A stretch of DNA of 64,000 nt from Haliotis asinina (taxonomy: Eukaryota; Mollusca; Gastropoda; Lepetellida; Haliotidae). Below the pieces are notes generated by a model. That model did not search any database. It saw only the letters and a program-made list of their open reading frames with translations, and had not been told where the DNA came from. This document shows positions 4,428 to 19,802 of this stretch, one piece after another. How positions within the stretch are numbered: the first letter of the stretch is position 1; every line of letters starts with the position of its first letter. Location: the NCBI RefSeq assembly GCF_037392515.1, contig NC_090295.1, forward strand, positions 25,088,501 to 25,152,500, read 5' to 3'. The translations under genes and the position numbers were made by a program.

Positions 4428-5482
4428 ATGGACAAAACAATACAGGGCAGTCATCAAGTACTTGCAAAAGAAAGGGATGTCCCCAACACAGATACATGCT
4501 GACATGGTCTCCACTCTAGGGGATGATGCTCCTTCATGTTCCACAGTAAAGAAGTGGGCTGCAGAATTTAAGCGTGGCAGACAAAGCCTTGATGATGACC
4601 CACGCTCAGGAAGGCCTCAAACAGCAACCACTCCAGAAAACATCACGCGAGTGCTCGATATGTTGATGGATGATCGACGACTGACTACTCGACATATTGC
4701 TAGGGTAGTGGGCATCTCTCATGAGAGGGTTGAGCATATTATCACCAACGAATTAGGAATGACTAAAGTTTCTGCAAGATGGGTGCCAAAGCTCTTGACA
4801 GAACAGAAACGTGTCAGGTTCCAGACGTCCCTTGACAATTTGCGTCGTTTTGAAGCAGATCCCGATGATTTTGTGGCACGATTTGTAACCATGGATGAGA
4901 CCTGAATACATCACTTTCAACCACAAACAAAACTGCAGTCAAAACAGTGGAAGCATCCTGATTCACCAGCTCCGAAGAAAGCCAAGTCTGTTCCTTCAGC
5001 TGGAAAGGTGATGGCATCAGTCTTTTGGGATTCCAGGGGTGTTCTGCTCATTGATTATCTTGAAAAAGGTCAAACTATCAACGGCAGATACTATGCTGAT
5101 CTACTGAACCAGTTGCGAGAAGCAATCAAAGCCAAACGACGAGGGATGATCGCTAAAGGTGTCCTCTTCCACCAAGACAATGCGCCTGTTCACAAATCGG
5201 TGGTGGCCATGTCAACAATCCGCGATTGTGGCTTTGAACTCATTGACCATCCTCCTTATTCACCTGATTTGGCTCCTTCTGACTTCCACCTGTTCCCCAA
5301 AATGAAAACGGAACTCGCTGGTCGCCATTTTCCAAGTAATGATGACGTCATTTCCGCTGTGGCTGATTTTTTTTAGGGTAGCTGAAGAAGATTTCTTCCT
5401 CACCTGGATTCGGGCCTTGCAGCATCGCTGGCAAAAGTGTGTGAACTTGGAAGGGGACTGTGTAGAAAAATATATTACAAAC
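4428..5482 (+). pseudogene. Mariner transposase, disrupted
   Basis: The likely start is ATG 4428, but a one-base slip near 4445 puts the first codons out of frame with the rest. The body reads as a mariner transposase: an N-terminal helix-turn-helix with the RSGRP linker, then the catalytic acids in VTMDET, FHQDNAPVHKS and SPDLAPSDFHLFP, a DD34D arrangement. An in-frame TGA at 4903-4905 replaces the Trp normally seen after MDET. A second slip lies in the T-run near 5368-5376, after which the final ...CVNLEGDCVEK is in another frame. The reading frame is then cut by the Polinton at 5482/5483; the last codons and stop resume at 20123-20158. It cannot make an active protein. Confidence 0.88.
5478..5482. 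other. Polinton target-site duplication, left copy (CAAAC)
   Basis: CAAAC immediately precedes the left Polinton terminus (AGTAGTATAGG). An identical CAAAC at 20118-20122 follows the right terminus. Joining the flanks across one copy gives uninterrupted mariner 3' coding sequence, which supports this as the insertion scar. Polintons usually duplicate 6 bp; here 5 bp match exactly and the sixth differs (A/T). Confidence 0.8.
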
Positions 5483-5797
5483 AGTAGTATAGGTAATGAG
5501 AGTTCTGGACCACTTTTCAAAAAACCCCTCTAAAAAGTCTCATTTACTAAATGAGGCTTTGGTGGGACCATTAGCTCTTGCTACTATTGCCCCTACTACA
5601 AAGCTACGCCATCACGTTTACCGTGACTTGGCAGGCGGTAACACTGTGCCGTACGGTATGATCAATAATTCTTCTCTTACAAACCCCCTACCCGGCCCAT
5701 CCCTCAAGTAGTATAAGTTAGGTTCGTCGGCTTTCATATCCACTTTATCTATGTTGTAAGTTTTGACTGACCATATAGGATCGGTGGCTCGCTTACG
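5483..5797 (+). repeat. Polinton left terminal inverted repeat
   Basis: About 315 bp match the reverse complement of 19803-20117 with four differences seen by eye, near 5538, 5659, 5700 and 5768. All four are T on the left where the right arm, reverse-complemented, has C; two of these are in CpG context. The outer end reads AGTAGTATAGGTAATGAG. The inner part (5618-5797) is also coding sequence for the last 59 residues of the integrase. Confidence 0.92.
5534..5560 (-). terminator. Hairpin followed by T-run, downstream of integrase
   Basis: A 13-bp stem with a single central base lies about 60 bp past the integrase stop. On the minus strand it begins aaagcctcattta, and TTTTT follows. The left copy has one mismatch and the right copy (20040-20066) is perfect. 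It has the look of a transcription end signal for the minus-strand block, or of a structure used at the termini. Function is inference. Confidence 0.5.
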
Positions 5798-6586
5798 ACT
5801 ATCGCCCTCGTGTTCCCCCGGCTGGTACAGATACCTCACTAGGACCCTATCCGGTATCTGTTTCTCCTTCCCACGCAATGGAGCGGCCGATTCTGCAACT
5901 ATTGATTTTAGTTTGATAGCGTCTGCCGGTTTCTTACTGGTGAGACGGGTGACTTCATGGTTGATTGCCGACACCACCTCGGGTAACCTCGTGACCCATT
6001 CAGTCGATCGTTTTCCAGGGGTGGCCATCTCCCTAGCATACTGATGGCCGAACAAGCGCTCAGCCAAAGTCCTATTAAATCTCTCAACTATGGCTTGGCT
6101 GCGATGGGCTCTGGCCGTGCCACGCCTGACCTTTGTATCGTGTTTGGCTAGCAGTTGTGACACGGCACCCATGAACTCCCGTCCGGGGTCAACTTGCAGC
6201 TCTGTTGGCCACGTCAGCGGGCTGCGTTTGTATATGCGTTCGAATCCTCTGGCTACCTGGGCCGAATCTTTCGTGGTCAAGGGTTCGGCTTCCTTGTAAC
6301 GACTGGCTACGTCCACTACGGTTAAGGCATACTTGTACCTCTTGTCGTGGGGTAGGAACAGTAGGTCTGCCTGGTGAACGCTATTAGGTATGTTAATACC
6401 GAACCTCCTTCTAGGCACGTAGCGTGGTGCAGGCAAATAGATCTGCCACAGGGCTTGTTTTTCAAGCCACGCTTTGGCTTCCTCCGGGGGTACTCGTGCC
6501 ATTTTAGATAGCTTATCTACTGCGCTAGCTCCTTTCCAATATCCACGCGGGCTGTAATAAATAGCCTCAAATTTTTTCATGTCCAT
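5618..6586 (-). CDS. Polinton DDE integrase (retroviral type)
   Basis: This 322-residue protein should insert the Polinton DNA by strand transfer in the nucleus. The rve catalytic core shows the acid triad at D74 (HQADLLFLP), D133 (QVDPGREFMG) and E168 (QAIVERFNRTL). The C-terminal part (about 268-310, DPIWSVKTYNI, then GFVREELLIIP) matches the small beta-barrel/chromodomain-like tail of Polinton and Ty3-type integrases. The start at 6586 overlaps the end of the polymerase gene by 20 bp; a second Met two codons later is also possible. The last 59 codons lie inside the left terminal repeat, so the right arm carries a second copy of this tail. I see no HHCC zinc motif at the N-terminus. The frame is intact. 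Confidence 0.93.
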   Translation of the reverse strand: MDMKKFEAIYYSPRGYWKGASAVDKLSKMARVPPEEAKAWLEKQALWQIYLPAPRYVPRRRFGINIPNSVHQADLLFLPHDKRYKYALTVVDVASRYKEAEPLTTKDSAQVARGFERIYKRSPLTWPTELQVDPGREFMGAVSQLLAKHDTKVRRGTARAHRSQAIVERFNRTLAERLFGHQYAREMATPGKRSTEWVTRLPEVVSAINHEVTRLTSKKPADAIKLKSIVAESAAPLRGKEKQIPDRVLVRYLYQPGEHEGDSRKRATDPIWSVKTYNIDKVDMKADEPNLYYLRDGPGRGFVREELLIIPYGTVLPPAKSR

Positions 6587-9500
6587 ACGCGTATGTGTTT
6601 ATCCCATCAATAGCTATCCAACGTTTCGTGTCCATAGGCGATAGGGACGTCTTGTTTATAGTCAGTCCGTATATCTTGTGCCCATCACTTCTAAGTGTGT
6701 TCATTTTATGTCTAAAGGTACGGGTCTTGAACAGGGCTTCCTTGAATCTGGCGTGTTTGATGTGTTGTTTCACCACATACTTCTTAACCCCCTTAGCCTT
6801 CCGGATCTCGCTATTGTCGGCTTTCAGTATGGAGTACATCTTAGGCCTCAAACCTATGTACTCGGCTATGGGCGTGCCAGCACACTCGTCCTTCATCTTA
6901 CCTAGGACCTTTTTATTTACCGTACTGTGCATGGCATGGGTCTTAGGGTAGTCGCTGGTGTCGTATAAATCGATGTGTTTTTTCATGTCCTCGTACACGT
7001 CCTCGGTTCGAATCTCCATCAGCAGGGAATCCGTGTCAGTGTACAGCACTTCGCACCTGTCGCCGTACTGTTTCTTGAGCTCGTTGTAGTAAAAGTCGTA
7101 CATCAGGTGTTTGGATAAATCGAGGATGCTCATCCCCACGTAAACAGGTCGGTTGAATTTTATGTGGCTTTTCTTCATGTGTAGGGCAGCCAGGTCGTCT
7201 GTGAATATCTTGCTACGGTTGAATGCCGGACTGGCTATCAATTTCCTGAGCTTGTCTTCCTCACTAGATCTAACCAGCTTCACGGTCACGCGTTTCCTCA
7301 GGTTCTCCATAGTCTTACCAAACACCGAGTTGTTCATGAGCTTGTAGAGATTTTTCTCGAAATCACTGGTGGCTTTTTTTCGTAGGTCTGTGTTCATTCT
7401 GATGTAGGGCTCCATCCATGGGCTCTGGTCAAACATGAGCACCCTGTGTATTTTGGCCAGCCTCATACCCAACGACAGGTACAGCTGTAGGTTGCGATAG
7501 TGAACGATGTACTTGGTCTTATTCATTAAGTTAGGCACGAGTTTTTCAACGTCTGTCACACGACCACCTGACAAGTTATGTTGGTACTCAGACATCCAGT
7601 CTGGGTTAACCCTCATACGTTCGGGTGCAAGGGGATAGCTGTTGTGCGATGCGTGTAATGCCTTGGGATACTCTAAGTCAACCTCGAGGATATAACCTTT
7701 GTTCGAATCTGGTGCAATGCTCATAACATCAACGTGGGGTACCCATTCGAATCCCCCTGTAGGTAGATACTGACTCATGGCCCAGCCGTACAGGTTGTTT
7801 GCGTCGAGGTAGAGAATGTGATTGGTTGGTTTGTTAGGATCGTAACCTTTCACGTATTGATTATTTGCTTTAGCGTATCGTTTGGATGCCATGGAAATCC
7901 CACCTCGCAAGCCTTTCTCAATGAATAGGTGCATGTCGTAATCTGTGAGCAATTCTAAATTAACTCCGGTCTTTTTAAGCAAGGCGTCCCACGACAGACC
8001 TGGGCTGGTGTAATACCATGCGGGGTCGAGTTTATACTGCTTGAAACATGTCCGCCGAAACGTCTCGAACACGTCGGCTAACAGCAGTACATCTGTCCTC
8101 AAGTACAGGTCGTGATAATCGCCCAGGTTCTTACAACCCAGTTTATTCCATACGTTAATCGCGTGCGAGTAATCGTCTCGTGAGACGGACGCCTCATTCA
8201 GCTTGCTATAAAAGCAGTCAATAGGAGGTAGTCTGGTCTCTGTGAACTTAGCCCAACTATCCATGTACTCATAGGGGTACACACCCTTCCTCATAAGCAG
8301 GGGTCTAGTCTCGGCGTCTGTGTATCGATCGGTGATAGGGAAGGTATTGTTGGCCTTGACCAGACTGTCGAGTGACGACAGGAGGAACTGAAACGAGTCA
8401 ATGAACCTAAGTCCGTTTAAGCTGAAGGAGATGTATCTCTCCATGTTGTTGGGGATGCACGTTATATTACCATCGATTTTCGCGATGGCCTGCATGATCA
8501 AGTGTGAGTCGTACCCTCTCAAGTTGTGAAAGACAACGGGGATGTTTATTGTCTTAGGGTTGATTTTAAGCTTGAGGTTGCACGCGTTGTGAGCGGCGCC
8601 TCTATACTTACCAGTTATGTGGCAGTGATCTCTCACCGAATCACCGTTAAGTGGTGAGTCGCACACGTGACAGTTAGTGCTACTAGCGTGAGCTAGCCTG
8701 TCGGCTCGGGTCATACGCATGGGAGCGATTCTATACAATGCATTCCTAATAATTTTTTCTTCCTCCTGCAAACACTTTAGAAACCTTTCAGCCGCGTCAG
8801 GCCCCCTATACACTACCGGAGCTTTCGTTTCCCCGTCACAACGGACGACAATGTATCCAAACGAACAGGCTTTATGCTCTTGTGTCTTGTGGGTGAAGCT
8901 ACCCCCACTAGGGGGTGTGGGGGAATCCCCACCCACAACTAAGGCTTCGAAGTCGGCGTATATAATATAAGGTACAGACATTTGGTTCTTGTGGTTACTG
9001 AATTTTAGGATATTTTCACCTTCCTTAGGCATTTCGACTCGTATGGCCGTCTGCCCCACACCTTGGCAATCATCCCGGTGGGATTCTAATAAATCAGCTC
9101 GACTGAAACCGTGTAGACATCGTACACAAAAGTGTTTTTCCCCATTGTGTTTCGACTGGTCGTGCAACAACCGGCTGAGATGTTTTATCCACGTGTAGTG
9201 ATACTTTTCACCTAGTTGGATCATGAATATATTGATAACTTGGCAATCCTTCACCGTGCTGACCCTGTGTACTATTATTGTATTACCTTCGTGCCCAAAG
9301 ACATTTATAGCCAGATTATTCTGTTTTTCTACTTTAGTGATCTGGGATATGGGGGTGGGTTCATCTATACCATCCCAATTAAGCCCATCATCTTGGGGAT
9401 AGCTAGAAAGCCTATCTGAATGAGTGGCAGCTGGAAATAAGGCTGACCTGATAGATATCCTCAGGCAATCGTTTCCTCTATTCTTAACGTTTACTATGGC

Positions 9501-10268
9501 ATGTTTGTTCCTATAGTAGGGAGGCAAGGCTAGGTATGACCCACCTCTGAACGGCACGTATTTAGCTATGTCTAGATAGACATTATCGATTTTATCTACA
9601 GCCCACCCGGACCCCATGTGCGTGTAGCGTTCTAGGTATTCTCGTATCTGCTGAAAACTATTATCGATTGATGCGTCAATGGTCTCTGTATGTGTGACGA
9701 CCTCTTGTTGGCCTCGGAAGTAAGGTTGAAAATACTCAGTGACCCCTGTGGTGCCCTCCTTATCGAGCGACATTTTCACCGTGATCTGAAACTTGATACT
9801 TCCTAGATTATTTAGTTCCTGGTTGACCTTATCAGCTATCAGAGGTTTGATATCTGTAATGTCTATGTTTCTATCAACGTGCATGCGCCAACTTCCTAAA
9901 TAGTTGCCTACAGCGTGCTTAGTGCGCACGAACTGTAGGTCAATAGCTCTATTCTGTCGTAATAATTCTAAAAGCTGTGGTTTCCTCATACGAGAATACC
10001 CGCCTAAACCCAAATCGTGTGCCTCGGTTTTCAGTTGTTTTACAGTGGGACGTGCTACGGGGGCATGTGATAACAATGCGGTTAACCCAGCTCTCCCCAG
10101 TTTTGAATAACCCGTGTGTCCAAGCTGTTTCGCTTGAGCTTTTAACTGTTTTACTGTAGGAGGGACTTCTAAACCTAGTAATCTCAACAATGCTGACTTC
10201 CGCATTCTAGAATACCCGATAACACCTCTCTGTTTTGCGACCCTCTTGAGCTCGCGCACAGTAGACAT
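6567..10268 (-). CDS. Protein-primed family B DNA polymerase (Polinton PolB)
   Basis: This 1233-residue replicase is expected to copy the element from its termini. Polymerase motifs are A at 821-828 (LDANNLYG), B at 976-984 (KLMNNSVFG) and C at 1076-1081 (YTDTDS). The 3'-5' exonuclease motifs are Exo I at 438-441 (ADFE), Exo II at 582-589 (NLRGYDSH) and Exo III at 722-726 (YLRTD). Before the core are three tandem repeats (about 3-33, 38-67, 75-104) of form TVKQLKxxAxxLGxxGYSxxRK, resembling SAP or Rho N-terminal DNA/RNA-binding helices. A C2HC finger is at C381, C384, H397, C401. An HNH/endonuclease VII-like Cys/His cluster is at C533, C536, H548, H550, H560, C563. The stretch 145-250 is shared with the separate 107-aa gene upstream. 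A Gly/Pro-rich insert (445-457) is coded by a GC-rich mini-hairpin. The start at 10268 lies 26 bp after a 19-bp motif shared with that neighbour. Confidence 0.96.
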   Translation of the reverse strand: MSTVRELKRVAKQRGVIGYSRMRKSALLRLLGLEVPPTVKQLKAQAKQLGHTGYSKLGRAGLTALLSHAPVARPTVKQLKTEAHDLGLGGYSRMRKPQLLELLRQNRAIDLQFVRTKHAVGNYLGSWRMHVDRNIDITDIKPLIADKVNQELNNLGSIKFQITVKMSLDKEGTTGVTEYFQPYFRGQQEVVTHTETIDASIDNSFQQIREYLERYTHMGSGWAVDKIDNVYLDIAKYVPFRGGSYLALPPYYRNKHAIVNVKNRGNDCLRISIRSALFPAATHSDRLSSYPQDDGLNWDGIDEPTPISQITKVEKQNNLAINVFGHEGNTIIVHRVSTVKDCQVINIFMIQLGEKYHYTWIKHLSRLLHDQSKHNGEKHFCVRCLHGFSRADLLESHRDDCQGVGQTAIRVEMPKEGENILKFSNHKNQMSVPYIIYADFEALVVGGDSPTPPSGGSFTHKTQEHKACSFGYIVVRCDGETKAPVVYRGPDAAERFLKCLQEEEKIIRNALYRIAPMRMTRADRLAHASSTNCHVCDSPLNGDSVRDHCHITGKYRGAAHNACNLKLKINPKTINIPVVFHNLRGYDSHLIMQAIAKIDGNITCIPNNMERYISFSLNGLRFIDSFQFLLSSLDSLVKANNTFPITDRYTDAETRPLLMRKGVYPYEYMDSWAKFTETRLPPIDCFYSKLNEASVSRDDYSHAINVWNKLGCKNLGDYHDLYLRTDVLLLADVFETFRRTCFKQYKLDPAWYYTSPGLSWDALLKKTGVNLELLTDYDMHLFIEKGLRGGISMASKRYAKANNQYVKGYDPNKPTNHILYLDANNLYGWAMSQYLPTGGFEWVPHVDVMSIAPDSNKGYILEVDLEYPKALHASHNSYPLAPERMRVNPDWMSEYQHNLSGGRVTDVEKLVPNLMNKTKYIVHYRNLQLYLSLGMRLAKIHRVLMFDQSPWMEPYIRMNTDLRKKATSDFEKNLYKLMNNSVFGKTMENLRKRVTVKLVRSSEEDKLRKLIASPAFNRSKIFTDDLAALHMKKSHIKFNRPVYVGMSILDLSKHLMYDFYYNELKKQYGDRCEVLYTDTDSLLMEIRTEDVYEDMKKHIDLYDTSDYPKTHAMHSTVNKKVLGKMKDECAGTPIAEYIGLRPKMYSILKADNSEIRKAKGVKKYVVKQHIKHARFKEALFKTRTFRHKMNTLRSDGHKIYGLTINKTSLSPMDTKRWIAIDGINTYAYGHEKI

Positions 10269-10294
10269 CGTGTTTACACCTAAGAGAACTAATG

Positions 10295-10313
10295 TCTAAT
10301 TGGTTCACAGTAA
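10295..10313 (-). promoter_or_regulatory. Shared upstream motif, polymerase copy
   Basis: On the minus strand this reads TTACTGTGAACCAATTAGA. The same 19 bases occur exactly at 10653-10671. The motif ends 26 bp before the polymerase start codon. It includes a CCAAT core. An early-gene promoter or initiator is the simplest reading; this is inference. Confidence 0.6.
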
Positions 10314-10628
10314 AGGGGAGGTAACTCTTAAAAAATATTTTCTGGTGGCCGGGTACAATTCTAGACATTCTGTCAAATCGTCCCACGTACCTGGTAAAAT
10401 ATATAGTGTGGCTGTTTCAATCCAGTACTCGCCTTGGGTATAGTATTCCTTGTATTCACTTATACTCGAAAAACGTTCTATATGGTATTGAGACGCGATA
10501 TCCCGCTCCCATTCGAAGGGGTGAGTATACTTAACACCCTCTTTAATCCATACCACGTCCACTATTATCTTAAATCTGAAGCTTCCCCATAAGGCCAGTT
10601 CATATTTGAATATGTTTTCCACAGACAT
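10305..10628 (-). CDS. Small protein related to the PolB N-terminal domain
   Basis: This 107-residue ORF aligns by eye with PolB residues about 148-240. Shared features are the ELxxxGSxxFxI start (ELALWGSFRFKI versus ELNNLGSIKFQI), a middle segment SISEYKEYYTQGEYWIE (versus SFQQIREYLERYTHMGSGWAVD), and the TLYILPGTW/YLDIAKYVP strand. It carries none of the catalytic motifs. It sits directly upstream of PolB and has the same 19-bp upstream motif at almost the same distance (24 bp). A plausible role is an accessory replication factor or a decoy/partner of the polymerase's N-terminal module. Function is unknown. Confidence 0.75.
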   Translation of the reverse strand: MSVENIFKYELALWGSFRFKIIVDVVWIKEGVKYTHPFEWERDIASQYHIERFSSISEYKEYYTQGEYWIETATLYILPGTWDDLTECLELYPATRKYFLRVTSPLL

Positions 10629-10652
10629 AGCTATACGTAGGTGTGTATAATC

Positions 10653-10671
10653 TCTAATTGGTTCACAGTAA
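10653..10671 (-). promoter_or_regulatory. Shared upstream motif, 107-aa gene copy
   Basis: This is an exact copy of the 19-bp motif at 10295-10313, placed 24 bp before the 107-aa start codon. Conservation of both sequence and distance argues for a regulatory site rather than chance. Confidence 0.6.
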
Positions 10672-10674
10672 CTC

Positions 10675-10935
10675 TTAAGTGGCTATCTTGAGCAGTCGCC
10701 TACGTTCTTTTATGTAGCCTTTTTTATTCTCGTATATGAGTTGATGTCTGACTACGTTCGCTCCGTGAGCTTTACATAAACAGTAGTGCCCTTTAACCCC
10801 GATACCACACACAGAACACGTGTAGTTAGGACTTCCCATATGGAAACAACAGAACCCCTGATTCCTGCATTTCCTACCACAGGCCTCGGTCTTCCCCATA
10901 AGTATATATTCGCATCGGTATGGAGCGGGTCTCAT
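10675..10935 (-). CDS. Small Cys/His-rich protein, probable zinc binder
   Basis: This 86-residue protein has about ten cysteines and several histidines in pairs that suit zinc: C8, CGRKC, CCFH, CSVCG and CLCKAH. The basic C-terminus (KGYIKERRRLLK) would suit nucleic acid binding. The start at 10935 follows a TATATAAG sequence by about 8 bp. I do not recognise a named family; a regulator of element transcription or packaging is possible but not shown. Confidence 0.65.
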   Translation of the reverse strand: MRPAPYRCEYILMGKTEACGRKCRNQGFCCFHMGSPNYTCSVCGIGVKGHYCLCKAHGANVVRHQLIYENKKGYIKERRRLLKIAT

Positions 10936-10954
10936 GTTTACTTATATAGGTATT

Positions 10955-11380
10955 TTAGTTTAATTGCTTCGCAACCAACGCAGTAGCTGCTATACCCAAC
11001 ACTATGAAGCCCAGTTCACGATTCATTTGTCCCTTGGATGGTGTGTAGTACTGAGCGAGTGTGGGTTTATTGAGCGGTTCCAATTGTTTACCAGTTAGTA
11101 TGTAGTATTCTTTCATTGCTTCATCGACATCGTAGAATGTTTTAATGGCATGGTTTTCACGCTTGAGCTGTTCATTAATAAAATCGATCCTCTGGAGGCG
11201 TTTTTTAACGTACTCGTCCTGTGCTCTTTGTAATTTCTCAGTAGCGAGATCGTGTCGCTTCCTTTCTTCCTGTATTTCAGACGCGTGATCATCTCGTAGT
11301 TTCGAGAAGAGGAAATTACTCCCGGAAAATGCCAGGGCATTCACTAACGCCCCACCGACCATCATAGCTATCGTGGCCAT
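10955..11380 (-). CDS. Conserved-type Polinton protein, coiled coil with hydrophobic ends
   Basis: The 141-residue product has an N-terminal hydrophobic stretch (about 1-25, MATIAMMVGGALVNALAFSG), a long charged helix likely to be coiled coil (about 33-80, EIQEERKRHDLATEKLQR...), and a C-terminal hydrophobic segment (about 124-140, ELGFIVLGIAATALVAK). This layout suggests a membrane-linked or virion-internal protein. It starts 8 bp upstream of the end of the 75-aa gene's leader and is packed head-to-tail with its neighbours on the minus strand. I recall similar small proteins beside Polinton genes in other invertebrates, but no function is known to me. Confidence 0.75.
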   Translation of the reverse strand: MATIAMMVGGALVNALAFSGSNFLFSKLRDDHASEIQEERKRHDLATEKLQRAQDEYVKKRLQRIDFINEQLKRENHAIKTFYDVDEAMKEYYILTGKQLEPLNKPTLAQYYTPSKGQMNRELGFIVLGIAATALVAKQLN

Positions 11381-11388
11381 CCCTATAT

Positions 11389-11616
11389 TTATTTCATTAT
11401 ATTATCAGGTATTATTCCTTGTTTTACTAGGATGTCTTTTGTGGCCATCGCCATACCAAGGTTCATTATGAGCATACCCATATCCTGCAGGTTGAAATCT
11501 AGCTTGATAGTTGGTTGTTTAAGCACCATTTTAGTCAACCGAGCGTACCCTACGGCTAGACTGGCGACCACTGTGGCGTGGTATGCGTCGTTGACGAACG
11601 TTTTCCCCTCAGACAT
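11389..11616 (-). CDS. Small hydrophobic Polinton protein (75 aa)
   Basis: The product has two hydrophobic segments (about 11-25 and 45-60) separated by a charged turn (KQPTIKLDFNLQDMG) and ends DILVKQGIIPDNIMK. The start at 11616 is preceded on the minus strand by an AT-rich tract with TTTTATATCA, typical of this element's gene starts. A membrane or capsid-associated role is inferred only from composition. Neighbours lie within 10-30 bp on both sides. Confidence 0.72.
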   Translation of the reverse strand: MSEGKTFVNDAYHATVVASLAVGYARLTKMVLKQPTIKLDFNLQDMGMLIMNLGMAMATKDILVKQGIIPDNIMK

Positions 11617-11643
11617 TATGTATATGATATAAAATATTTTAAA

Positions 11644-11958
11644 TTATAACATGATATGCGGGTCTACCATGGGGGTATCCCCCATACCCCCACTGTTGTG
11701 GGTGGGGGGCTCACTGTGGGAGGGTACCCCCGCGTATAACCATGTTATAACCACGGCAGCAGTTACACCTACAGCCAACAACAGTCGGGTTGGGTTGGTC
11801 ACTTTATGTTGGTTACACCACCGTTTTTTACCGGCAGCTACTCTCTTAGGGTTCTTCTGCCTGGTTACTGTAGGGGGTGTGGGGGGTACCACCACTGGGG
11901 TCTCCACCGTCACTGGTTCCTGTGAATCCACTGGGGTCTCCTCCTGTGCAGCATCCAT
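11644..11958 (-). CDS. Single-pass membrane protein, Pro/Thr-rich (104 aa)
   Basis: The N-terminal 50 residues are acidic and Pro/Val/Thr-rich, then a basic stretch (RQKNPKRVAAGKKRW) and one membrane helix (about 60-77, LLLAVGVTAAVVITWLYAG). The tail is Ser/Pro/Gly-rich and is coded by a GC-rich mini-hairpin near 11670-11712. The first third overlaps the 3' end of the preceding gene in another frame (11846-11958). The start follows an (ATA)n-like tract. The function is unknown; the topology would suit a small virion membrane or anchoring protein. Confidence 0.6.
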   Translation of the reverse strand: MDAAQEETPVDSQEPVTVETPVVVPPTPPTVTRQKNPKRVAAGKKRWCNQHKVTNPTRLLLAVGVTAAVVITWLYAGVPSHSEPPTHNSGGMGDTPMVDPHIML

Positions 11959-12418
11959 CTATACTATTATTATTATTCTTTCTCTCAAATTGGCAATGTT
12001 TTGCCGTGATAATCGCCGCCGTCACTGGAGCCAACAACATACCATATTTGTGGTACAGCCCGCAGCTGATAGAGCTCACGGCGTGTTCGATAAAAGGGTC
12101 TTTATCTAGGTCCTCCCACAGGTAAAGTCGGCGCTCTGGTGGAATGGGAAGGAAATGTGACACAATACCGGTGTATATCTGGGTCATAGCCGATCCTATT
12201 GTCTTTGTCATTTCTGCTCCGAGCCGGGACTCGTATCTAGCGTACAGCTTATCGATTTCTTCGGCTGACATTTTGTTAATTTTATCTGGAGTGTAGTCTC
12301 CAAAGTAATGTTTGGCTTTGCCACCAACAGCCAACGCCACCAGTTTCTCTCGCTTGGGGGAATCCCCAGTTGGGGAACCCTCCACAGACAATTGTTCGAG
12401 CAATTCCTCACACTCCAT
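11846..12418 (-). CDS. Polinton protein of unknown function (190 aa)
   Basis: I chose the start at 12418 (MECEELLEQLSVEG) because TTATATTATAAG, the AT-rich motif seen at other starts here, lies just before it. A longer form from 12526 would add 36 mostly hydrophobic residues, a possible membrane anchor. The body (about 40-150) is helical and ends in a conserved-looking KHCQFERK. The tail after that is low complexity: Asn run, then Gly/Asp/Pro/Ser coded by a TTATTA microsatellite and a GC-rich tract, overlapping the next gene. The tail therefore looks like a recent extension. I recall similar proteins next to Polinton capsid genes, with no assigned role. Confidence 0.7.
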   Translation of the reverse strand: MECEELLEQLSVEGSPTGDSPKREKLVALAVGGKAKHYFGDYTPDKINKMSAEEIDKLYARYESRLGAEMTKTIGSAMTQIYTGIVSHFLPIPPERRLYLWEDLDKDPFIEHAVSSISCGLYHKYGMLLAPVTAAIITAKHCQFERKNNNNSIDGCCTGGDPSGFTGTSDGGDPSGGTPHTPYSNQAEEP

Positions 12419-12532
12419 CTTATAATATAACAAGTAAGATTTAGTTTTAACTATATAATACCCGATGCAGATAAAACACAGAGAAATGAAGGTTAAGTTG
12501 CACACGATAAATACTTCAAATATCATAGCTAT

Positions 12533-12607
12533 ATGCTTAGCTTTGCTTAGCTTTGCTTAGCTTTGCTTAGCTTTGCTTAGCTTTAGCTTAGCTTTGCTTA
12601 GCTTTAG
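12533..12607. repeat. 10-bp tandem repeat (ttagctttgc)n in a Polinton spacer
   Basis: About seven units of cttagctttg lie between the ATPase gene and the next minus-strand gene, the last with small indels. It is the only long non-coding tract inside the element (12527-12649). A role as promoter spacing or origin is possible; slippage noise is equally possible. Confidence 0.75.
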
Positions 12608-12649
12608 TATACTATATATGCTACTGGTTGGTCGGTTTTTAGAACGAGC

Positions 12650-13273
12650 TTAGTGTTTAGTTTCAGCGAGCTGTTTCTTCACCCGTTCCCGTTCTAATTT
12701 ACTCATCACATCGTTCTCTCTCAAACACTCCTCAAACGAATCCCTATCCTTGCAGTGAAATAAGGCCACCCATCGCGTCTGCTCCCTGAGGTCTTTCAAC
12801 ACCGAGTTGAACTTCTGCGTTAGCACCCAGACGCTGTGATTTGCATGCCGGCCGGAGAAGGCCAGGTACGATAGCATGTCTCTCTTTTTTGTTATCTCGC
12901 GATTAGCGCTGCAGTCGTCCAGTATAAACAGCGTCGGTTCCCCTTTAAATTTCTCGTGAAGAGCTTTCAACCAGTCCTGCAGGCGTGTTCCAGGGTCGAT
13001 TTTGTGTACGTCCGGGTCCGTCATTACCCAAGGTCGCGCGTACGTTTTATTCATGCTCAGAGTAGGGCACATGATAACGATGTTATCGAACACATCCTTG
13101 TAGTAACCCTCCAACATATCCAACACGAAAACGGTCTTCCCACAGCCAGTCTGTCCGCATATGATAGCGCAGTGTGGGTCAGTGGGGAGGGGGAGACCCC
13201 CACACCCCCCAGAGGTTGGTAGTTTATTGGGGGGGTCTCCCCCATCAGTAGATGGCTTGCACGAATCTCCCAT
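12650..13273 (-). CDS. Packaging ATPase (FtsK/HerA, A32-like)
   Basis: This 207-residue P-loop ATPase should pump the element's DNA into capsids. The Walker A motif is at 40-47 (GQTGCGKT), Walker B at 116-120 (FILDD) and a downstream polar sensor at about 141-153 (GRHANHSVWVLTQ), as in poxvirus A32-type packaging enzymes. The first 30 residues are Gly/Pro-rich and coded by GC-rich mini-hairpins. The start at 13273 lies inside the end of the capsid gene (29-bp overlap), so the two are probably co-expressed. The size is normal for the family and the frame is intact. Confidence 0.9.
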   Translation of the reverse strand: MGDSCKPSTDGGDPPNKLPTSGGCGGLPLPTDPHCAIICGQTGCGKTVFVLDMLEGYYKDVFDNIVIMCPTLSMNKTYARPWVMTDPDVHKIDPGTRLQDWLKALHEKFKGEPTLFILDDCSANREITKKRDMLSYLAFSGRHANHSVWVLTQKFNSVLKDLREQTRWVALFHCKDRDSFEECLRENDVMSKLERERVKKQLAETKH

Positions 13274-14501
13274 TGTCTATATTAAGTTGCGCGTCCATAA
13301 TAACGTACAGATATAATTTCAACTTACCAGCGGTTTGAGCCTTCTTATTAATCTGGATGGTTATCCCTTCGCTGCCGTTATCTATACGGCGCCCGCTACC
13401 GTGCAGTTTATCATCATCCGTGGATCGCATGTCCAACCATAAGGCGTACTTGGTGGTCAGGTATTCACCGATCTGCACGGAGCCGAGGTCCAGGTCCTTT
13501 GTTATATAATCCCCCACTGGTAGCTTTTTTATCTCATCCCACTGCTGGTGTGGTCTCATACCATGGCTGAACAGCTGGTTGGGCACGCCCTCGATGGTCA
13601 CTTCCACCTTTTCAATCTCGGGGTTGAAAAACTTCTCGCTGTCCCTCCGGAATGGATCGTAATCCTCCACGGGGACGACCAGGATACCTTTCATCGATCG
13701 CGCCGGTACGTTCAGGTTGATATTCCACACAGTGTCGCTCTTATCTCGCACGACTGATCTATGCCTCAGTACGCGATCGTACAGGATAGCCATCTTCCCA
13801 GAGTACTGGCTTCGAACCTGCCTGGCCAGCTCCGGGCTAGTGACCATGTCGAACTCCAGAGAGATGTTGTCTATGGCATAACTGGCCTCATCACCGTTCG
13901 GCGTACGCACTACTTTGCTATAGTCGTTAAACGTGAGCTCGTATTCGAGCCTATCACCCAGCGCGGCCTGGTAAAACGGCGCGTGTCCCGTGAGCAGCTC
14001 GAAGTCGAGCGGCACGCAGAATCGATTCCCGTATGCTAGAGCGATGGCCTTTTCACCGTCCGATAGCTTGTCTTGTTGGTCTGTCGTGAAGACGTATCCT
14101 ATGCGCGCCCGGGTTGATTTACTGATACCCTGGTACACATCATTGACTCGTTCTCTCTCGCTTTTCCAGAGATCCTTGTAGCAGTGAAACACGTCGCTGT
14201 CGTCGATGCTCAGTACCTCGTTACCGCTGATCTTGACGGTCGTTTTCTTGATGATAGCTCGACCCACGTTCCGCACTAGCTCGCGTTTGTCGTTGTCGGA
14301 GGTCAACGTGATATTGAACGCCAGTCGAACAGTGCCTGGTACAATGAGGTCATTCTCACCAAGGTTTGGAAATCTAACCAACAGAGTTTGATTCTGGTCT
14401 ATCTTGCTGGGATTGTTGGTGATGGTCACCGACTGTCGCACGGCTCTGGCACCTAATGGCTCTCTCAATCTTCTGAAAGGATCTAATTTTCTACCGTACA
14501 T
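13245..14501 (-). CDS. Probable major capsid protein (double jelly-roll type)
   Basis: The 418-residue product is rich in beta-strand-like segments with few helices and has no membrane segment or signal peptide. Features suggesting a double jelly-roll hexon-like shell protein are the N-terminal strand block (about 21-70, SVTITNNPSK... LVRFPNL), a mid-protein PLDFELLTGHAPFYQAAL segment, and a second strand-rich half ending in LKLYLYVIMDAQLNI. Synteny agrees, as it sits directly before the packaging ATPase. It is shorter than the roughly 600 residues common for Polinton capsid proteins. The assignment rests on pattern and position, not on a structure comparison. The start lies 32 bp from the divergent 388-aa gene. 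Confidence 0.7.
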   Translation of the reverse strand: MYGRKLDPFRRLREPLGARAVRQSVTITNNPSKIDQNQTLLVRFPNLGENDLIVPGTVRLAFNITLTSDNDKRELVRNVGRAIIKKTTVKISGNEVLSIDDSDVFHCYKDLWKSERERVNDVYQGISKSTRARIGYVFTTDQQDKLSDGEKAIALAYGNRFCVPLDFELLTGHAPFYQAALGDRLEYELTFNDYSKVVRTPNGDEASYAIDNISLEFDMVTSPELARQVRSQYSGKMAILYDRVLRHRSVVRDKSDTVWNINLNVPARSMKGILVVPVEDYDPFRRDSEKFFNPEIEKVEVTIEGVPNQLFSHGMRPHQQWDEIKKLPVGDYITKDLDLGSVQIGEYLTTKYALWLDMRSTDDDKLHGSGRRIDNGSEGITIQINKKAQTAGKLKLYLYVIMDAQLNIDNGRFVQAIY

Positions 14502-14533
14502 TGTTATATAAATAAAATATATTTTTAATACTA
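14502..14533. promoter_or_regulatory. 32-bp AT-rich bidirectional start region
   Basis: The whole spacer between two divergent start codons is A/T with one G and one C or so, including tatataaataaaatatat. Both genes would therefore have very short leaders. It resembles the spacer at 16848-16876, suggesting a common late-type promoter. Confidence 0.6.
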
Positions 14534-15700
14534 ATGGATGAAGATATAGATATGACGGAGATGCCGGGCGCTAGTGCCCAGGCATATGATGAGCAGGAGA
14601 CCTCATTTACTAGTTCACCATTGAACCAAGAACTCTTGGAAACAACGGTAGATGATTATTTCGAAAGTTTAAGAAGAGATAAAAACTACGTTGAACCACA
14701 GGGTCGATACCATAAGGATTTTTTTATTGATACAAAGGGTGTTCTACGCCTTAAGTCTGACCCAGGGGTTGACCTCTTTAACAAGAGCAATAAAAAACCA
14801 CTGGCCTTGTCAACTCTAGCCAGCCGCTATGGTGTCGAATTTATTCGTAAAAATCTAAACATGAATGATTACGGTGGTGCAATACCTAAGGCCGTTAAAG
14901 AAGATCTGCAAGCTACCAGATCCCACCTCACCACTAGAGATGAAATGACACCAGAGCGTGCTACAGAAGCCTCGGACAGCATAGAAAAACTGTTGAGCAC
15001 CTACTGGGACAAACCGTTACCGGGGTTTGACTTTCCGGTAAGGGAACTGTACGGCTTAGACGAAGCCGTGAAACGCGTGCGTGGAGAACTCGTGAACAAC
15101 ATGGGGAAACTAAACGAAATCGACGAGCACATCGCTAGGGAAAAAACCAAACTCAACGAAACTGAAAACGATGATATGAAACGCCGTATCAATGAACGAA
15201 TACGCGATTTAGAAGACGAGAGACGTACACGATTGGAAGCCGCTTCCTCGAATCGTGAACAGCTTCGATCCCAGATCAGTCGCATTCGGGAAACAATCGA
15301 TAGAATACTGAACGAAGATACAACTTTAGCCAACAGGATTCGGATATTATTCCGGGAGCAAGGGATCACCATCGCCAGCATTCTGACTGCATTGGGTTTC
15401 ATCATATCAACCTTGGTGGTGTCACTGGTGGGGGGTGCCCCTGTTGGGTCTACAGGAGGCGGCGGAACTCCAAGTGGCGGTGGTGGTGTTAAAGACTGGA
15501 TTAAAAAACTCGGGGAAGGCCTAGCTAAACTGGCTGGTAAAGCCGCCGAAGCCCTTCCCGGCATCCTGGGTAGCATCGTCTCGTGGTTGTTGAGCGCTCT
15601 GTCTAAAACTGCCATGTGGCTCAGTCAAAACCTGTGGGCAGCCATCGTCGCCGTGGCGGGTCTGGTGTACGTAGCGGCTAAGAAATCTTTAACCAAATAA
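14534..15700 (+). CDS. Polinton virion-type protein with coiled coil and amphipathic tail
   Basis: The 388-residue product begins with an acidic, disordered stretch, then a folded part (about 35-180). A strong coiled coil follows (about 190-265, with KRRINERIRDLEDERRTRLE), then a membrane segment (about 275-300, ITIASILTALGFIISTLVV). A Gly/Ser/Thr linker comes next (303-323), coded by GC-rich repeats. The last 65 residues are amphipathic and hydrophobic helices (WIKKLGEGLAKLAGKAAEAL, then a Trp-rich segment). The tail resembles membrane-active helices; adenovirus protein VI is a functional analogy only. The 3' end overlaps the convergent 389-aa gene by 23 bp. Intact. Confidence 0.75.
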   Translation: MDEDIDMTEMPGASAQAYDEQETSFTSSPLNQELLETTVDDYFESLRRDKNYVEPQGRYHKDFFIDTKGVLRLKSDPGVDLFNKSNKKPLALSTLASRYGVEFIRKNLNMNDYGGAIPKAVKEDLQATRSHLTTRDEMTPERATEASDSIEKLLSTYWDKPLPGFDFPVRELYGLDEAVKRVRGELVNNMGKLNEIDEHIAREKTKLNETENDDMKRRINERIRDLEDERRTRLEAASSNREQLRSQISRIRETIDRILNEDTTLANRIRILFREQGITIASILTALGFIISTLVVSLVGGAPVGSTGGGGTPSGGGGVKDWIKKLGEGLAKLAGKAAEALPGILGSIVSWLLSALSKTAMWLSQNLWAAIVAVAGLVYVAAKKSLTK

Positions 15701-16847
15701 GTCCCAAAGTTACCCCACCAACCACTAAGGCTGTTTTATTATCAATATGCTGCTGATAGGTGGTGGAAACCCCCACACCCCCCGGGGGTACCTCCACATG
15801 AACTTTAGGCTCCGGTGGTGGCGCAACTATACCCGTTTCACGTGGTTGGGTGTGTGGGATATAGGGGGTGTTAATATCAGGGTTGATACCCAACTTTTGA
15901 TCCTTCGTGGCTATGACTATTTCGTTGTTATAACCCACCACTTTTTTTATTCTCAGTTGCATATCACTCGGAGCCATGTACAACCCCACGCCGAACACGT
16001 AATTGACTTTCGATCTGGCGTATTCTAACACGTTTTGGTAGCGTTCGATGGCCCTCGGGAGATCAACTGGTGAATTGATAGCATCATCAACGTTGGAAAC
16101 GAATTGTGTCTGAGCGTCGTAAGCAGTTCCCTTACCGAGGATGTTAGAACGCGTCATCGACTGCGCACCCAACAGCGCCCACACGTACGTTCGAATCGAG
16201 TCGTTCAAGCATATTGTACCAGCACGAGTGAATCCTTTCGATGTTTTTGAGATCATTTTAGTCCAGGCTGTGGCTGCATCAGGACTGGTTTGCTTTATAC
16301 AGCTGACATGGATCTGTTCATTCGTTGTGGGGCCTGTAAATGTATGACGGTGTGGGTTGTATGAACCATCTTTAGAACCGGCATAATATTTTCCGGACCT
16401 GTAGAAGTACACGAGAACTATACCGAGACCATGGTTCACACCAGGAAGGCGAAAGTCTTTATTCGTTGGAATCTCAAACTCCCCACAAATACGTTCATAA
16501 GCGCGTCTATCATAGGGGTTATTCGTCATACTCCACGCTTTATCTTGGGGAAGAGGAGCACTTATTTCCTTCAATATTCGTCTCGTTTGATAATAAATAT
16601 GAAACAAAACAACCGCCTTACTCAGTTCGTCTATACCATAGTCTGGTGTCACACCCGACCCTGTCGTCGCACACCACACAGCAAAGTTGAGTTGGTTCTG
16701 CCAAAACTGCATTGGGTTTTGATTCCAGTTTACCACCGCCTGCGCGTTATTAACGGACACGACATACTTTTCAAAGATATCAATAAAGGTTGTTTTAAAC
16801 CCCGTACCATCTGCATTCACCACGATTTTCAAGTGTGCTAAATCCAT
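15678..16847 (-). CDS. Polinton protein of unknown function, C-terminal anchor (389 aa)
   Basis: It is the only minus-strand gene in the otherwise plus-strand right half. The first 300 residues look globular (MDLAHLKIVVNADGTGFKTT at the start; many aromatic residues). Then follows a Pro-rich linker (about 328-358) with a GC-rich mini-hairpin coding VPPGGVGVSTT, and a final hydrophobic helix (about 370-387, TALVVGGVTLGLIWL). It shares a 29-bp divergent spacer with the minor capsid candidate. A structural virion protein tethered by its tail is a reasonable guess. I do not recognise a domain. Confidence 0.72.
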   Translation of the reverse strand: MDLAHLKIVVNADGTGFKTTFIDIFEKYVVSVNNAQAVVNWNQNPMQFWQNQLNFAVWCATTGSGVTPDYGIDELSKAVVLFHIYYQTRRILKEISAPLPQDKAWSMTNNPYDRRAYERICGEFEIPTNKDFRLPGVNHGLGIVLVYFYRSGKYYAGSKDGSYNPHRHTFTGPTTNEQIHVSCIKQTSPDAATAWTKMISKTSKGFTRAGTICLNDSIRTYVWALLGAQSMTRSNILGKGTAYDAQTQFVSNVDDAINSPVDLPRAIERYQNVLEYARSKVNYVFGVGLYMAPSDMQLRIKKVVGYNNEIVIATKDQKLGINPDINTPYIPHTQPRETGIVAPPPEPKVHVEVPPGGVGVSTTYQQHIDNKTALVVGGVTLGLIWLKIS

Positions 16848-16876
16848 ATTATAATATATAAATTATATAATATAAT
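16848..16876. promoter_or_regulatory. 29-bp AT-only bidirectional start region
   Basis: The spacer between the divergent starts at 16847 and 16877 is purely A/T (attataatatataaattata and so on) and nearly palindromic. It is a second example of the arrangement at 14502-14533. Confidence 0.6.
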
Positions 16877-17530
16877 ATGTACATAACACTTCCAGGAATA
16901 ACGAGCGGTGAGGCCGTTCAGCTGACGCACGCGATCGATAACACGTCAGGTCAACTCGAAGTCGCACTCTGCGATATCACCTACCTACCGCAATGGACTA
17001 ACATTAATATCAGCAACAATAAGCTGTTCGTCAGTGGAACTCGCAGTCAGATAACTGACGGTTACTACAGCGTGTGCTCTCTAAACGACGAGGTCTTCAA
17101 ACCCCTGGGAGCCGAACTCAAGATGAACGACTCAAACGGCACAGTGGTGTTAATCAACAACGGAAGAACCTCCTTGAGGCTCGGCCGACCATTAGCGAGG
17201 ATACTCGGTATGTCTCCTGACGAGATAAAACCAACAACAACCGTCACAGGCACGAAGTTACCCGAACTAGTACCGTACCGAGAGCTATACATTCATCTCG
17301 GTCAGGTGAGCACAACGTATAACATTCAAGGAGGTCACCCTTCCACTATATTGAGAGCAGTGCCGGTGAAAACTGAGAAATTCAACGACGGTAGAACCGA
17401 GTCATTTTCACCACGGCAGTATAAGAGATTAACCCAGGGCAACATACCTGAGCTGACAATATCGGTGTTAGATATAAATCATAATCCTGTAAATATAGGA
17501 TACCTCAGCTTAACGCTTCACGTAACATGA
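16877..17530 (+). CDS. Probable minor capsid (penton-like) protein
   Basis: The 217-residue product is strand-rich throughout, from MYITLPGITSG to a final ELTISVLDINHNPVNIGYLS, a pattern that suits a single jelly-roll with a buried last strand. The size suits Polinton penton-like minor capsid proteins. It is first in a tight plus-strand run of four genes, and its stop overlaps the next start (ATGA at 17527-17530). The role is inferred from pattern and location and needs a structural comparison. Confidence 0.6.
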   Translation: MYITLPGITSGEAVQLTHAIDNTSGQLEVALCDITYLPQWTNINISNNKLFVSGTRSQITDGYYSVCSLNDEVFKPLGAELKMNDSNGTVVLINNGRTSLRLGRPLARILGMSPDEIKPTTTVTGTKLPELVPYRELYIHLGQVSTTYNIQGGHPSTILRAVPVKTEKFNDGRTESFSPRQYKRLTQGNIPELTISVLDINHNPVNIGYLSLTLHVT

Positions 17531-18441
17531 CCAGCGCACAAGGGCCCGGAGTGAAAAAATGCGTCAATATCGGGATCTCCGACCTTGGAGACACGCGCGG
17601 TTTCGACGCTCCCGGAGTAGATGGTAAATCGTACGCCTTGCAACTGAAAAACAACATTTACAAACGCGTTGAAGTCTCCTCCGGTGGAACCCTAAGTGAT
17701 ATGATAGATACCACAGGAGCAACAGTCAACACTAAGTACGCCCTCGTCAACACCGGTGATGACAACTGGAGAATATACCCATCGTTCGGGGGTAAACTGT
17801 TCGACTTGGACGATGTTGAGCGCACTACCGTCGTCAAAAACCGGCCATATAGGCTCGTCTTCACCGAAGATGACAAGTGGGTGTTGTTACCCGATTACGA
17901 AACCTGGTTTCTTAATATTGACCTCTTCTCCCCCTACGTGTTCACTGATAACAAAGACCACTACCTAAACAAAGTCGTGAACAATGGAACCCTGCTCGTG
18001 GCTTACGTTCCAACTCAGAGACGTAGCGTAGTCATCAGCCAAATCAACAATTCACCACTCCACATGCTATCGAGTAAACCGAACATACAAAACGTGAAAT
18101 TGCAGTTGGTGTCTGAATTCGAAGGCGTGGACAAATTATTAGATGGTATACCATCAAACGTAACACTGGCCATCAAAGTCTACCTAGGGGAACCATCGGG
18201 GGATGACGTCGAGATCGTGAAAGGGGTCAAACTAGGGTGGGAAAGACGACACAAGGATCAAGTTTGCCACGTTTACGTGCGGGTTGGTGTCGGCTCCAAC
18301 ACCAGTCTGCAGGGTGTCAACGTGACCGTGGAAAACAAAATATCACTAACTAAGATCTTCCTACCTAACAACATACACTTTATTGGTATGAAGTTCCTCC
18401 CTATACTAGTACCAAAAAACCAGTTGGAAATTATACCATAA
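17527..18441 (+). CDS. Polinton protein A of a paralogous pair (304 aa)
   Basis: It shares three blocks with the next gene: a head LGDTRGFDAPG...YALQLKNNIYKRV (about 19-50), a middle FLNIDLFSPY...KVVNNGTLLVAYVP (about 122-160), and a C-terminal GWERRHKDQVCHVYVRVGVG (about 236-255). Between the head and middle it has an extra block of about 70 residues with strand-like repeats that the paralog lacks. There is no signal peptide or membrane segment. Both sit after the minor capsid candidate, which would suit spike, fibre or receptor-contact proteins; that is a guess from order alone. Confidence 0.7.
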   Translation: MTSAQGPGVKKCVNIGISDLGDTRGFDAPGVDGKSYALQLKNNIYKRVEVSSGGTLSDMIDTTGATVNTKYALVNTGDDNWRIYPSFGGKLFDLDDVERTTVVKNRPYRLVFTEDDKWVLLPDYETWFLNIDLFSPYVFTDNKDHYLNKVVNNGTLLVAYVPTQRRSVVISQINNSPLHMLSSKPNIQNVKLQLVSEFEGVDKLLDGIPSNVTLAIKVYLGEPSGDDVEIVKGVKLGWERRHKDQVCHVYVRVGVGSNTSLQGVNVTVENKISLTKIFLPNNIHFIGMKFLPILVPKNQLEIIP

Positions 18442-18451
18442 TATTATAACA

Positions 18452-19153
18452 ATGACCAATTATCATCCCAACACTACTCTTAACGACCTAGGAGATACTG
18501 AGGGGTTCGATGAGCCTGGTGAGGAAGATGAATTTTATATCCTACACTTCAAAGACAACGTGTACAGACGAGTGTCGTTATCAAACTTAAAAGAGCCTAG
18601 ATGGTTGATCAACTTAACATTAGCCTCACCTTATATCACACTAAAAGAAGATGATCTTATCACTAAGATTAGAAACAACGGTGACTGGATCGGGGAGTTC
18701 ATTCCGGATGGTGGTGTAGCAGTCATAGTAGGGTTTGGTAATATAAAAACTAGGTTAAGGTCTGTTGGGTCAATCAATAAATTAACATTTAACACTAATA
18801 TACCTTTCCCGGACAGTATTGAGCTATCATACTACCCTTTAACAATCATCATAGAAGTCTTCTTTACGAGTGATGGCACCATGAGAGTAACCCAAATTTT
18901 ACCCGGGTTGATAATAAGATGGGATTACAAACACGCAGGTCAATATTGCCGTATTATTATACAACGAGGATACCAACCGGAACCTATAAAACACTTAACA
19001 AGCCTCAGTGGGGTTTCTATTGAAATAATAGGAGAGACTATTAAACTCTCACCTATTACCCTGACTATTGGTATAAACCTTCTAAACCTTAAATACATTA
19101 AGAGAAAGTTAACTGAAACCCAATTAAAATATCTTTCAAAATATATATTATAG
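18452..19153 (+). CDS. Polinton protein B of a paralogous pair (233 aa)
   Basis: This is a shorter relative of the preceding gene. It has LGDTEGFDEPG...FKDNVYRRVSL at the N-terminus, LINLTLASPYITLKEDDLIT in the middle and IRWDYKHAGQYCRIIIQRGY near the C-terminus, and lacks the extra block of A. The start is 10 bp after the stop of A and follows AATATTATAACA, the AT-rich start motif. Tandem duplication followed by loss or gain of one block is the likely history. Confidence 0.7.
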   Translation: MTNYHPNTTLNDLGDTEGFDEPGEEDEFYILHFKDNVYRRVSLSNLKEPRWLINLTLASPYITLKEDDLITKIRNNGDWIGEFIPDGGVAVIVGFGNIKTRLRSVGSINKLTFNTNIPFPDSIELSYYPLTIIIEVFFTSDGTMRVTQILPGLIIRWDYKHAGQYCRIIIQRGYQPEPIKHLTSLSGVSIEIIGETIKLSPITLTIGINLLNLKYIKRKLTETQLKYLSKYIL

Positions 19154-19154
19154 G

Positions 19155-19772: not shown

Positions 19773-19802
19773 ACTGTTTCATCGATATAAACATAACATA
19801 GC

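Follow-up and report, generated by a model that had tools for sequence, protein, structure and literature searches.

A 64,000-nt stretch of the Haliotis asinina genome (contig NC_090295.1, positions 25,088,501 to 25,152,500 of the forward strand; referred to here as the window) contains a Polinton at positions 5483-20117, and protein genes of this virus-like transposon carry copies of one 23-nt palindromic DNA unit. Within the window the unit occurs as five copies, in both orientations, read in four phases and with sharp edges, and it is confined to the Polinton. The explanation that we favor, with a probability of roughly 0.6, is that a minute palindromic repeat has multiplied in one lineage of animal Polintons, its copies surviving where the protein tolerates them; the copying step is one that we infer.

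GC-rich near-palindromic tracts do stand where an earlier note, made from the letters of the window, had placed them, and the consensus that the note proposed could be built from them. Aligned, the tracts yield the 23-nt sequence GTGGGGGNNNCCCCCACACCCCC, a hairpin of the form G5-N3-C5 to which the joint ACA links a further C5 tract. With up to three mismatches allowed, this consensus has five matches in the 64 kb, all five in the Polinton (0.00 expected; 0 of 100 shuffles), a count that is partly circular because the consensus was built from the tracts themselves. A better test is provided by the 13-mer core CCCCCACACCCCC, which has four exact copies in the Polinton; no 13-mer exceeded two copies in 200 synonymous-codon permutations, which leave every protein unchanged, or in 200 codon-order permutations. 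Adjacent G/C runs of at least 5 are likewise in excess (11 pairs, against maxima of 7 and 4 in the two permutation sets), with a weaker signal from single runs of at least 5 (33, versus means of 25 and 20 and maxima of 37 and 31). The pattern GGGGGNNNCCCCC, with at most one mismatch, has 12 matches in the 64 kb where 0.88 are expected; 11 of the 12 are in the Polinton, and since three of these overlap at 13229-13243 they amount to nine places.

The tracts are as follows, with positions in the window.

8911-8933, minus strand: copy A, in PolB, reading ..VGGDSPTPPSGGS.., two mismatches to the consensus.
11669-11691, plus strand: copy B, near the 3' end of open reading frame (ORF) 11644-11958 (minus strand), reading ..SGGMGDTPM.., two mismatches.
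11873-11895, minus strand: copy C, in the overlap of ORF 11644-11958 (minus strand) and ORF 11846-12418 (minus strand), one mismatch.
12356-12375, unstranded: partial copy D, a bare hairpin near the 5' end of ORF 11846-12418 (minus strand), reading SPTGDSP.
13187-13209, plus strand: copy E, in the N-terminal extension of the packaging ATPase, one mismatch.
13229-13243, unstranded: second hairpin of site E, GGGGGGGTCTCCCCC, a match to GGGGGNNNCCCCC.
15430-15441, plus strand: GGGGGGTGCCCC in ORF 14534-15700, not a copy, no consensus match.
15760-15782, plus strand: copy G, in the variable tail linker of ORF 15678-16847 (minus strand), reading PPGGVGVSTT, one mismatch.

None of the five copies is perfect. 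Copy A and the adjoining CCCCCACTAGGGGG (8902-8915) make a double hairpin, and the G/C tracts continue past copy B to about 11712. Copy E and the hairpin at 13229-13243 fall within the stretch encoding DGGDPPNKLPTSGGCGGLP, with two hairpins spanning 13183-13243, while partial copy D consists of GGGGGAATCCCC overlapping CCCCAGTTGGGG, without the CCCCCACACCCCC tail. The earlier note had taken seven sites to be alike; this holds for five of them, whereas 12354-12385 is a bare hairpin and 15425-15445 holds no copy. The candidate at 15430-15441 was rejected because it does not match the consensus and its adjoining Gly codons are a mixture of GGA, GGC and GGT.

The exact CCCCCACACCCCC cores translate as SPTPP in PolB, as PPTPP and TPHTP in the overlapping ORFs 11644 and 11846, as GGCGG in the ATPase and as GGVGV in ORF 15678, and they stand on both strands relative to coding. 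Because one core gives different peptides, on both strands, the conserved entity is the DNA and not the peptide. Its edges are sharp: across the five aligned rows the mean majority count is 4.39 in the core, and the 25-nt flanks of the copies give 2.56 and 2.36, versus 2.49 for random columns, which is to say no flank similarity. Selection at the protein level, whereby flexible Gly/Pro/Ser linkers would simply happen to use GGG and CCC codons, is difficult to reconcile with a single 13-mer that specifies five different peptides on two strands, or with four copies of it where 200 synonymous permutations gave at most two. We reject this explanation on the basis of the strand and phase readings and the synonymous permutation, and regard it as very improbable, even though the copies do lie in ORFs, the Gly-rich segment 15425-15490 of ORF 14534 with its mixed codons looks like an ordinary linker, and the linker of ORF 15678 is variable and often Pro/Ala-rich in relatives. 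Within the sites GGG accounts for 13 of 28 Gly codons and CCC for 15 of 23 Pro codons (74 of 266 and 46 of 194 outside), a tally that is circular because the sites were chosen by their G/C runs.

Comparison with homologs bears on the same question. The best 120 matches each for the ATPase (of 671), PolB (of 290) and ORF 15678 (of 634) were examined, 360 proteins in all, and any of the six possible peptide readings of the unit was found in just one of those listed, the ATPase P0001. The earlier note had named the same linkers in distant orthologs as the finding that would speak for selection on the protein; at the protein level, for these three genes, they were not encountered, 359 of the 360 listed homologs being without the peptides. 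The window ATPase reads MGDSCKPST-DGGDPPNKLPTSGGCGGLP-LPTDPH and P0001 reads MGDSCKPST-YGGHPCGGHPHTPNSGGVPGGYRGYPH-LPTDPH. After the insert the two proteins are identical at 177 of 179 positions (99%), and the 9 residues before it are also identical, yet the insert is 19 residues long in the window versus 27 in P0001, with little likeness beyond Gly and Pro. The CGGHPHTPN of P0001 is the consensus GTGGGGGNNNCCCCCACACCCCC translated in one phase (compare SGGHPHTPN from the DNA of locus L004, one of the viral loci described below). The 119 other listed ATPase relatives are without a similar insert, and their N-terminal Gly plus Pro content is at most 0.19, versus 0.38 and 0.40 in the window protein and P0001. 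Read at the protein level, the array at the ATPase site appears to have turned over between near-identical relatives.

In PolB the linker is DFEALVVGGDSPTPPSGGSFTHKTQEHKACSF, as opposed to, for example, DFEALTTKIEGPELDPTKSNTQRTQHHEACSY in relatives. Its length of 27 residues is also the commonest among relatives (90 of the 107 measured), which argues that the tract replaced linker sequence instead of lengthening it; 108 of the 120 listed relatives were examined, the other 12 being without the motif searched for. In ORF 15678 the tract is part of a linker in the tail, and this linker varies greatly across the 120 listed relatives. The claim that the tracts always occupy linkers or tails thus holds in the three ORFs compared with their homologs (PolB, the ATPase and ORF 15678), where the sites fall in variable parts, and its reach is limited to these three.

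The unit might instead serve the Polinton as a functional DNA or RNA signal, for packaging, recombination, termination or the binding of a host factor. In favor of this, four of the five copies are no more than about 105 nt away from a gene end. Site A folds clearly, as two adjacent hairpins (-13 kcal/mol, z -3.0), and sites B and E fold moderately (z -1.9 each). The sequence CCACACCC resembles the CACCC box bound by KLF/Sp1 factors. Two points weaken this reading: copy A stands mid-gene in PolB, and near-identical ATPases carry different arrays. The orientations are also mixed, three of the six sites fold no better than shuffles, and the peptides are missing from nearly all of the listed homologs of the three genes, so that we consider a functional signal improbable. 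Slightly less improbable is that the Polinton has the unit in common with its host, as a genomic repeat or through a mutational bias acting locally. G/C runs are known to be prone to expand in place. The 49.8 kb of the window outside the Polinton nevertheless contains no copy, versus about 17.5 expected at the density found in the Polinton.

The carrier itself is a Polinton/Maverick, with an integrase, a protein-primed PolB, an A32-type packaging ATPase and long terminal inverted repeats, which together define the element at 5483-20117.

5483-5802, unstranded: left terminal inverted repeat, 320 nt, 98% complementary to 19798-20117.
5618-6586, minus strand: integrase (rve), by Pfam.
6567-10268, minus strand: PolB of the protein-primed type, with Rho_N and Endonuclease_7, by Pfam and relatives; holds copy A.
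12650-13273, minus strand: packaging ATPase (Pox_A32 family), by Pfam and relatives; holds site E.
19798-20117, unstranded: right terminal inverted repeat, pairing with 5483-5802.

The sequence CAAAC borders the element at both ends (5478-5482 and 20118-20122). In the left flank, Pfam finds HTH_48 of Mos1 and Transposase_1 in fragments of a mariner-type transposase, and by eye the two flanks resemble halves of one element that the insertion split. Many listed PolB relatives contain PF03175, and the best matches are 62-64% identical. Named relatives of PolB and ORF 15678 include Elysia crispata, Lineus longissimus and Mactra antiquata, and those of the ATPase include bins named Candidatus Thiodiazotropha. 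No Polinton relatives were confirmed in IMG/VR viral contigs by way of the major capsid protein, PolB or the ATPase, or in genome contigs by way of the ATPase. The window ATPase terminates about 16 residues before the end of P0001, and this copy of the Polinton may for that reason be decaying. Tandem GCTTAGCTTT repeats occupy 12532-12610, between the ATPase and the next ORF.

The same unit occurs in archaeal viruses. The sequence GGGGGNNNCCCCCACACCCCC is present in 13 IMG/VR stretches, seven of them in loci with a GC content of 0.388-0.455, and several of the carriers are Sulfolobales viruses; one, L008, encodes an end-filament protein of the fusellovirus type. A 34-nt archaeal version matches 15 records in a phage collection, 14 of which are Sulfolobus viruses. 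The gene adjoining the arrays of L009 has relatives in SMV1 and two-tailed viruses (27-34% identity), and orthologs of this membrane-protein gene (phrog_21437; L157-L166, alignment A2) can be compared directly: six of ten are filled, with differing arrays, and four are empty, reading KDYWGKWKEL or KDYWAKWKEL. The frame is kept in five of the six filled orthologs, among them the strongly worn L160. At a second site, the start of the ORF that follows the phrog_21437 gene, three of ten are filled. L157, L159 and L160 are contigs of L009, L004 and L003, which were recruited by the motif and are not independent, whereas L158, L165 and L166 are independent. As side observations, 34-nt blocks such as TTAGCATTGGGGGTTTTAGGGGGTACCCCCCTAA recur in Sulfolobales-type contigs, in a search that itself demanded TTAG...CTAA ends, and in SSV Lassen (L167, 1501-1532) the unit adjoins an annotated integration (attachment) site. 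A control on the joint in IMG/VR gave 13 stretches with ACA, 19 with AGA and 5 with TCT, so ACA is not the commonest joint there. A second palindrome family, CTGGGGCTCTGCCCCAGACCCCGCTGGGGGACACCCCCAGACCCCC and variants (L136-L139, L141, L142, L144-L146, L148 and L151), makes up 11 of the 19 AGA hits.

In contigs of the genome collection, the 20 fixed bases of the unit were found at least 128 times, in at least 119 stretches, and among the matches listed several contigs each come from Helicobacter salomonis, Phormidium tenue, Cand. Heteroruminococcus and some Chloroflexota bins. Chance may contribute to the 117 of 128 listed matches with a local GC above 0.50. For the 11 at or below 0.50, a model of independent bases gives at most 0.18 per 10^11 bases, and predicts under half a low-GC match over the entire collection. 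In Helicobacter, GTGGGGGAGACCCCCACACCCCC is found in L018, L069 and L077 (H. salomonis) and in L056 (H. cynogastricus), at a local GC of 0.34-0.45, and the sequence after each of the three H. salomonis copies is similar (ctggggctttt-like), as in a dispersed repeat. In L113 the unit (2498-2520) lies 2 bases behind a tRNA-Arg gene; something tRNA-like also precedes the unit by eye in L008, L013 and L082, where ARAGORN detected no tRNA. At a length of 23 nt, shared descent of these units would probably be inseparable from convergence.

The prokaryotic copies bear on our main alternative, namely that a transposase mobilizes the unit as a miniature element, in the way that RAYT or another tyrosine (HUH) transposase mobilizes REP units. 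Genes for such transposases are reported to be flanked by terminal repeats of the consensus GGGGWSAS (PMC3733652, section 16), and both GGGGACAC and GGGGAGAC fit this consensus. The middle triplet in the 128 listed prokaryotic copies is ACA in 56 and AGA in 10, with ATT, which does not fit, also in 10. The sharp edges of the unit are consistent with mobilization as well. Against it, a crude motif search of 129 loci with the exact unit, mostly 8 kb long, gave an HUH-type motif in one, and that one doubtful, and Pfam identified no such transposase in the 10 of the 16 Polinton ORFs considered. Mobilization by a transposase is in our judgment unlikely, if somewhat less so than the explanations weighed above.

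The preferred explanation, multiplication of a minute palindrome within the Polinton lineage, would work as follows. Replication of Polintons is protein-primed and proceeds by strand displacement, leaving long single strands exposed. On such strands the G5/C5 hairpins, with their spare C5 tract, could mis-pair, and the stalled end could then copy a unit from elsewhere in the element, or slip, by template switching or hairpin-primed slippage; no dedicated enzyme would be needed. The unit would in this way be copied as DNA, in either orientation and without its surroundings. Copies that fell out of frame or into conserved parts of a protein would be harmful and purged by selection, and those that survive would be the ones that kept the frame and landed in flexible linkers, tails or overlaps. 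Arrays at one site would be rewritten far faster than the gene around them.

Several observations weigh against this explanation. No target-site duplication was seen beside the five copies, when looked for by eye, nor was a clean empty site seen for any of the Polinton copies or an enzyme found that would transpose the unit. The PolB tract is a replacement and not a clean insertion. The turnover at the ATPase site rests on a protein comparison with P0001, one protein from a 1581-nt JGI contig, and for the template-switch step the basis is what is generally known of how Polintons replicate. Among the viral orthologs, L166, which is filled and contains N bases, has stops in its insert. Folding at sites C, D and G is no better than that of shuffled sequence (z 0.46, -0.70 and 0.58), from which it follows that some copies look decayed. 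Finally, all-GC stems of at least 4 are not enriched (14 vs 12.7 expected), those of at least 5 are mildly so (5 vs 1.4-1.7 expected, with maxima of 5 and 6 in 300), and hairpin clusters number 6 in the Polinton (vs 1.9, with a maximum of 7 in 500 shuffles) and 5 in the remaining window (vs 3.1). The stem counts, like the codon tallies, took one ORF (11960-12420) out of frame, while the permutations of 13-mers and G/C runs used the correct frame. With these broad hairpin counts near chance, the signal is that of a specific repeated unit and not of many hairpins. The earlier idea of a self-spreading palindrome accordingly stands in part: there is one DNA unit, in both orientations and four phases, with no flank similarity and with turnover at the ATPase site, but neither an enzyme nor a duplication nor a clean empty site was seen with it.

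A wider and much more tentative possibility is that GTGGGGGNNNCCCCCACACCCCC is a recurrent, enzyme-free self-spreading form of DNA, a hairpin with an additional C-tract that would tend to be copied and rearranged by any replication machinery whose single strands are exposed over long lengths. Such a form might have arisen in, or arrived in, animal Polintons, Sulfolobales viruses, Chloroflexota, Helicobacter and others, and might repeatedly write new linkers into the proteins of mobile DNA. The recurrence of one 23-nt form across domains raises the question of whether DNA structure itself drives the copying. The two ATPases that are almost identical after the insert and carry different arrays at one place constitute a natural experiment, and from the filled and empty sites of the Sulfolobales viruses one could measure how fast, and by what rules, such insertion proceeds.

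Palindromes within protein genes are known from Rickettsia and some organelles, and the present unit is very small. Searches of open-licence papers brought up no such palindrome in protein genes of a Polinton, and the literal sequences appeared in five papers with titles on other subjects. The Rickettsia palindromic elements are repeats that lie in ORFs, in frame, where the protein tolerates them (PMC2229807, PMC10969869), and the likeness to them that the earlier note had drawn extends this far: the Polinton unit is in frame in PolB, the ATPase and ORF 15678, whose homologs lack the tract. It does not extend to size, an own frame or a conserved peptide, since those bacterial elements are about 100-150 bp long and have an open frame of their own and a conserved peptide, whereas the present unit, in a eukaryotic virus-like transposon, is 23 nt of G/C tracts read in four phases. 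REP units are palindromes of 20-40 bp that are sometimes intragenic (PMC3733652). Unlike the REP/RAYT system, the Polinton units have no GTAG or CGTC tag at the hairpin foot that is common to the five aligned copies and their flanks. As to an associated transposase, the crude search of 129 loci gave the one doubtful motif. MITEs have terminal inverted repeats with a target-site duplication, whereas the five copies of the Polinton unit have no conserved flank. By the features tested, the unit is not a Rickettsia palindromic element, a REP or a MITE.

Further parallels come from viruses and organelles. Sulfolobales viruses (fuselloviruses, SMV1/ATV-like) share the 23-nt unit with the Polinton, along with joints of the CCCCCACTAGGGGG type, and have it in a protein loop, although their 34-nt blocks with TTAG...CTAA ends are missing from the Polinton and the host domain is unrelated. 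The repetitive hairpin-forming elements of sponge mitochondria and the GC clusters of yeast mitochondria are short, lineage-specific invaders that are sometimes found in genes (PMC2800124); they differ in being mostly intergenic, organellar and of other sequences. In the plastid of Leontynka pallida, imperfect palindromes of the form AAGCCAGC-NNN-GCTGACTT are found in the exons of 11 genes out of 34, for the most part where conservation is poor (PMC8928634). Like these, the Polinton unit is a very short palindrome with a 3-nt spacer that lies in coding sequence, in both orientations and, in the three ORFs judged, in variable regions. The Leontynka palindromes differ in having another sequence, up to 36 copies per gene and a biased orientation and phase, and in residing in an organelle genome. 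In kind, the Polinton unit can be placed among gene-borne palindromes, beside the Rickettsia elements, the exonic mini-palindromes of Leontynka and the mitochondrial hairpin elements, the likeness to Leontynka being one of type and not of descent.

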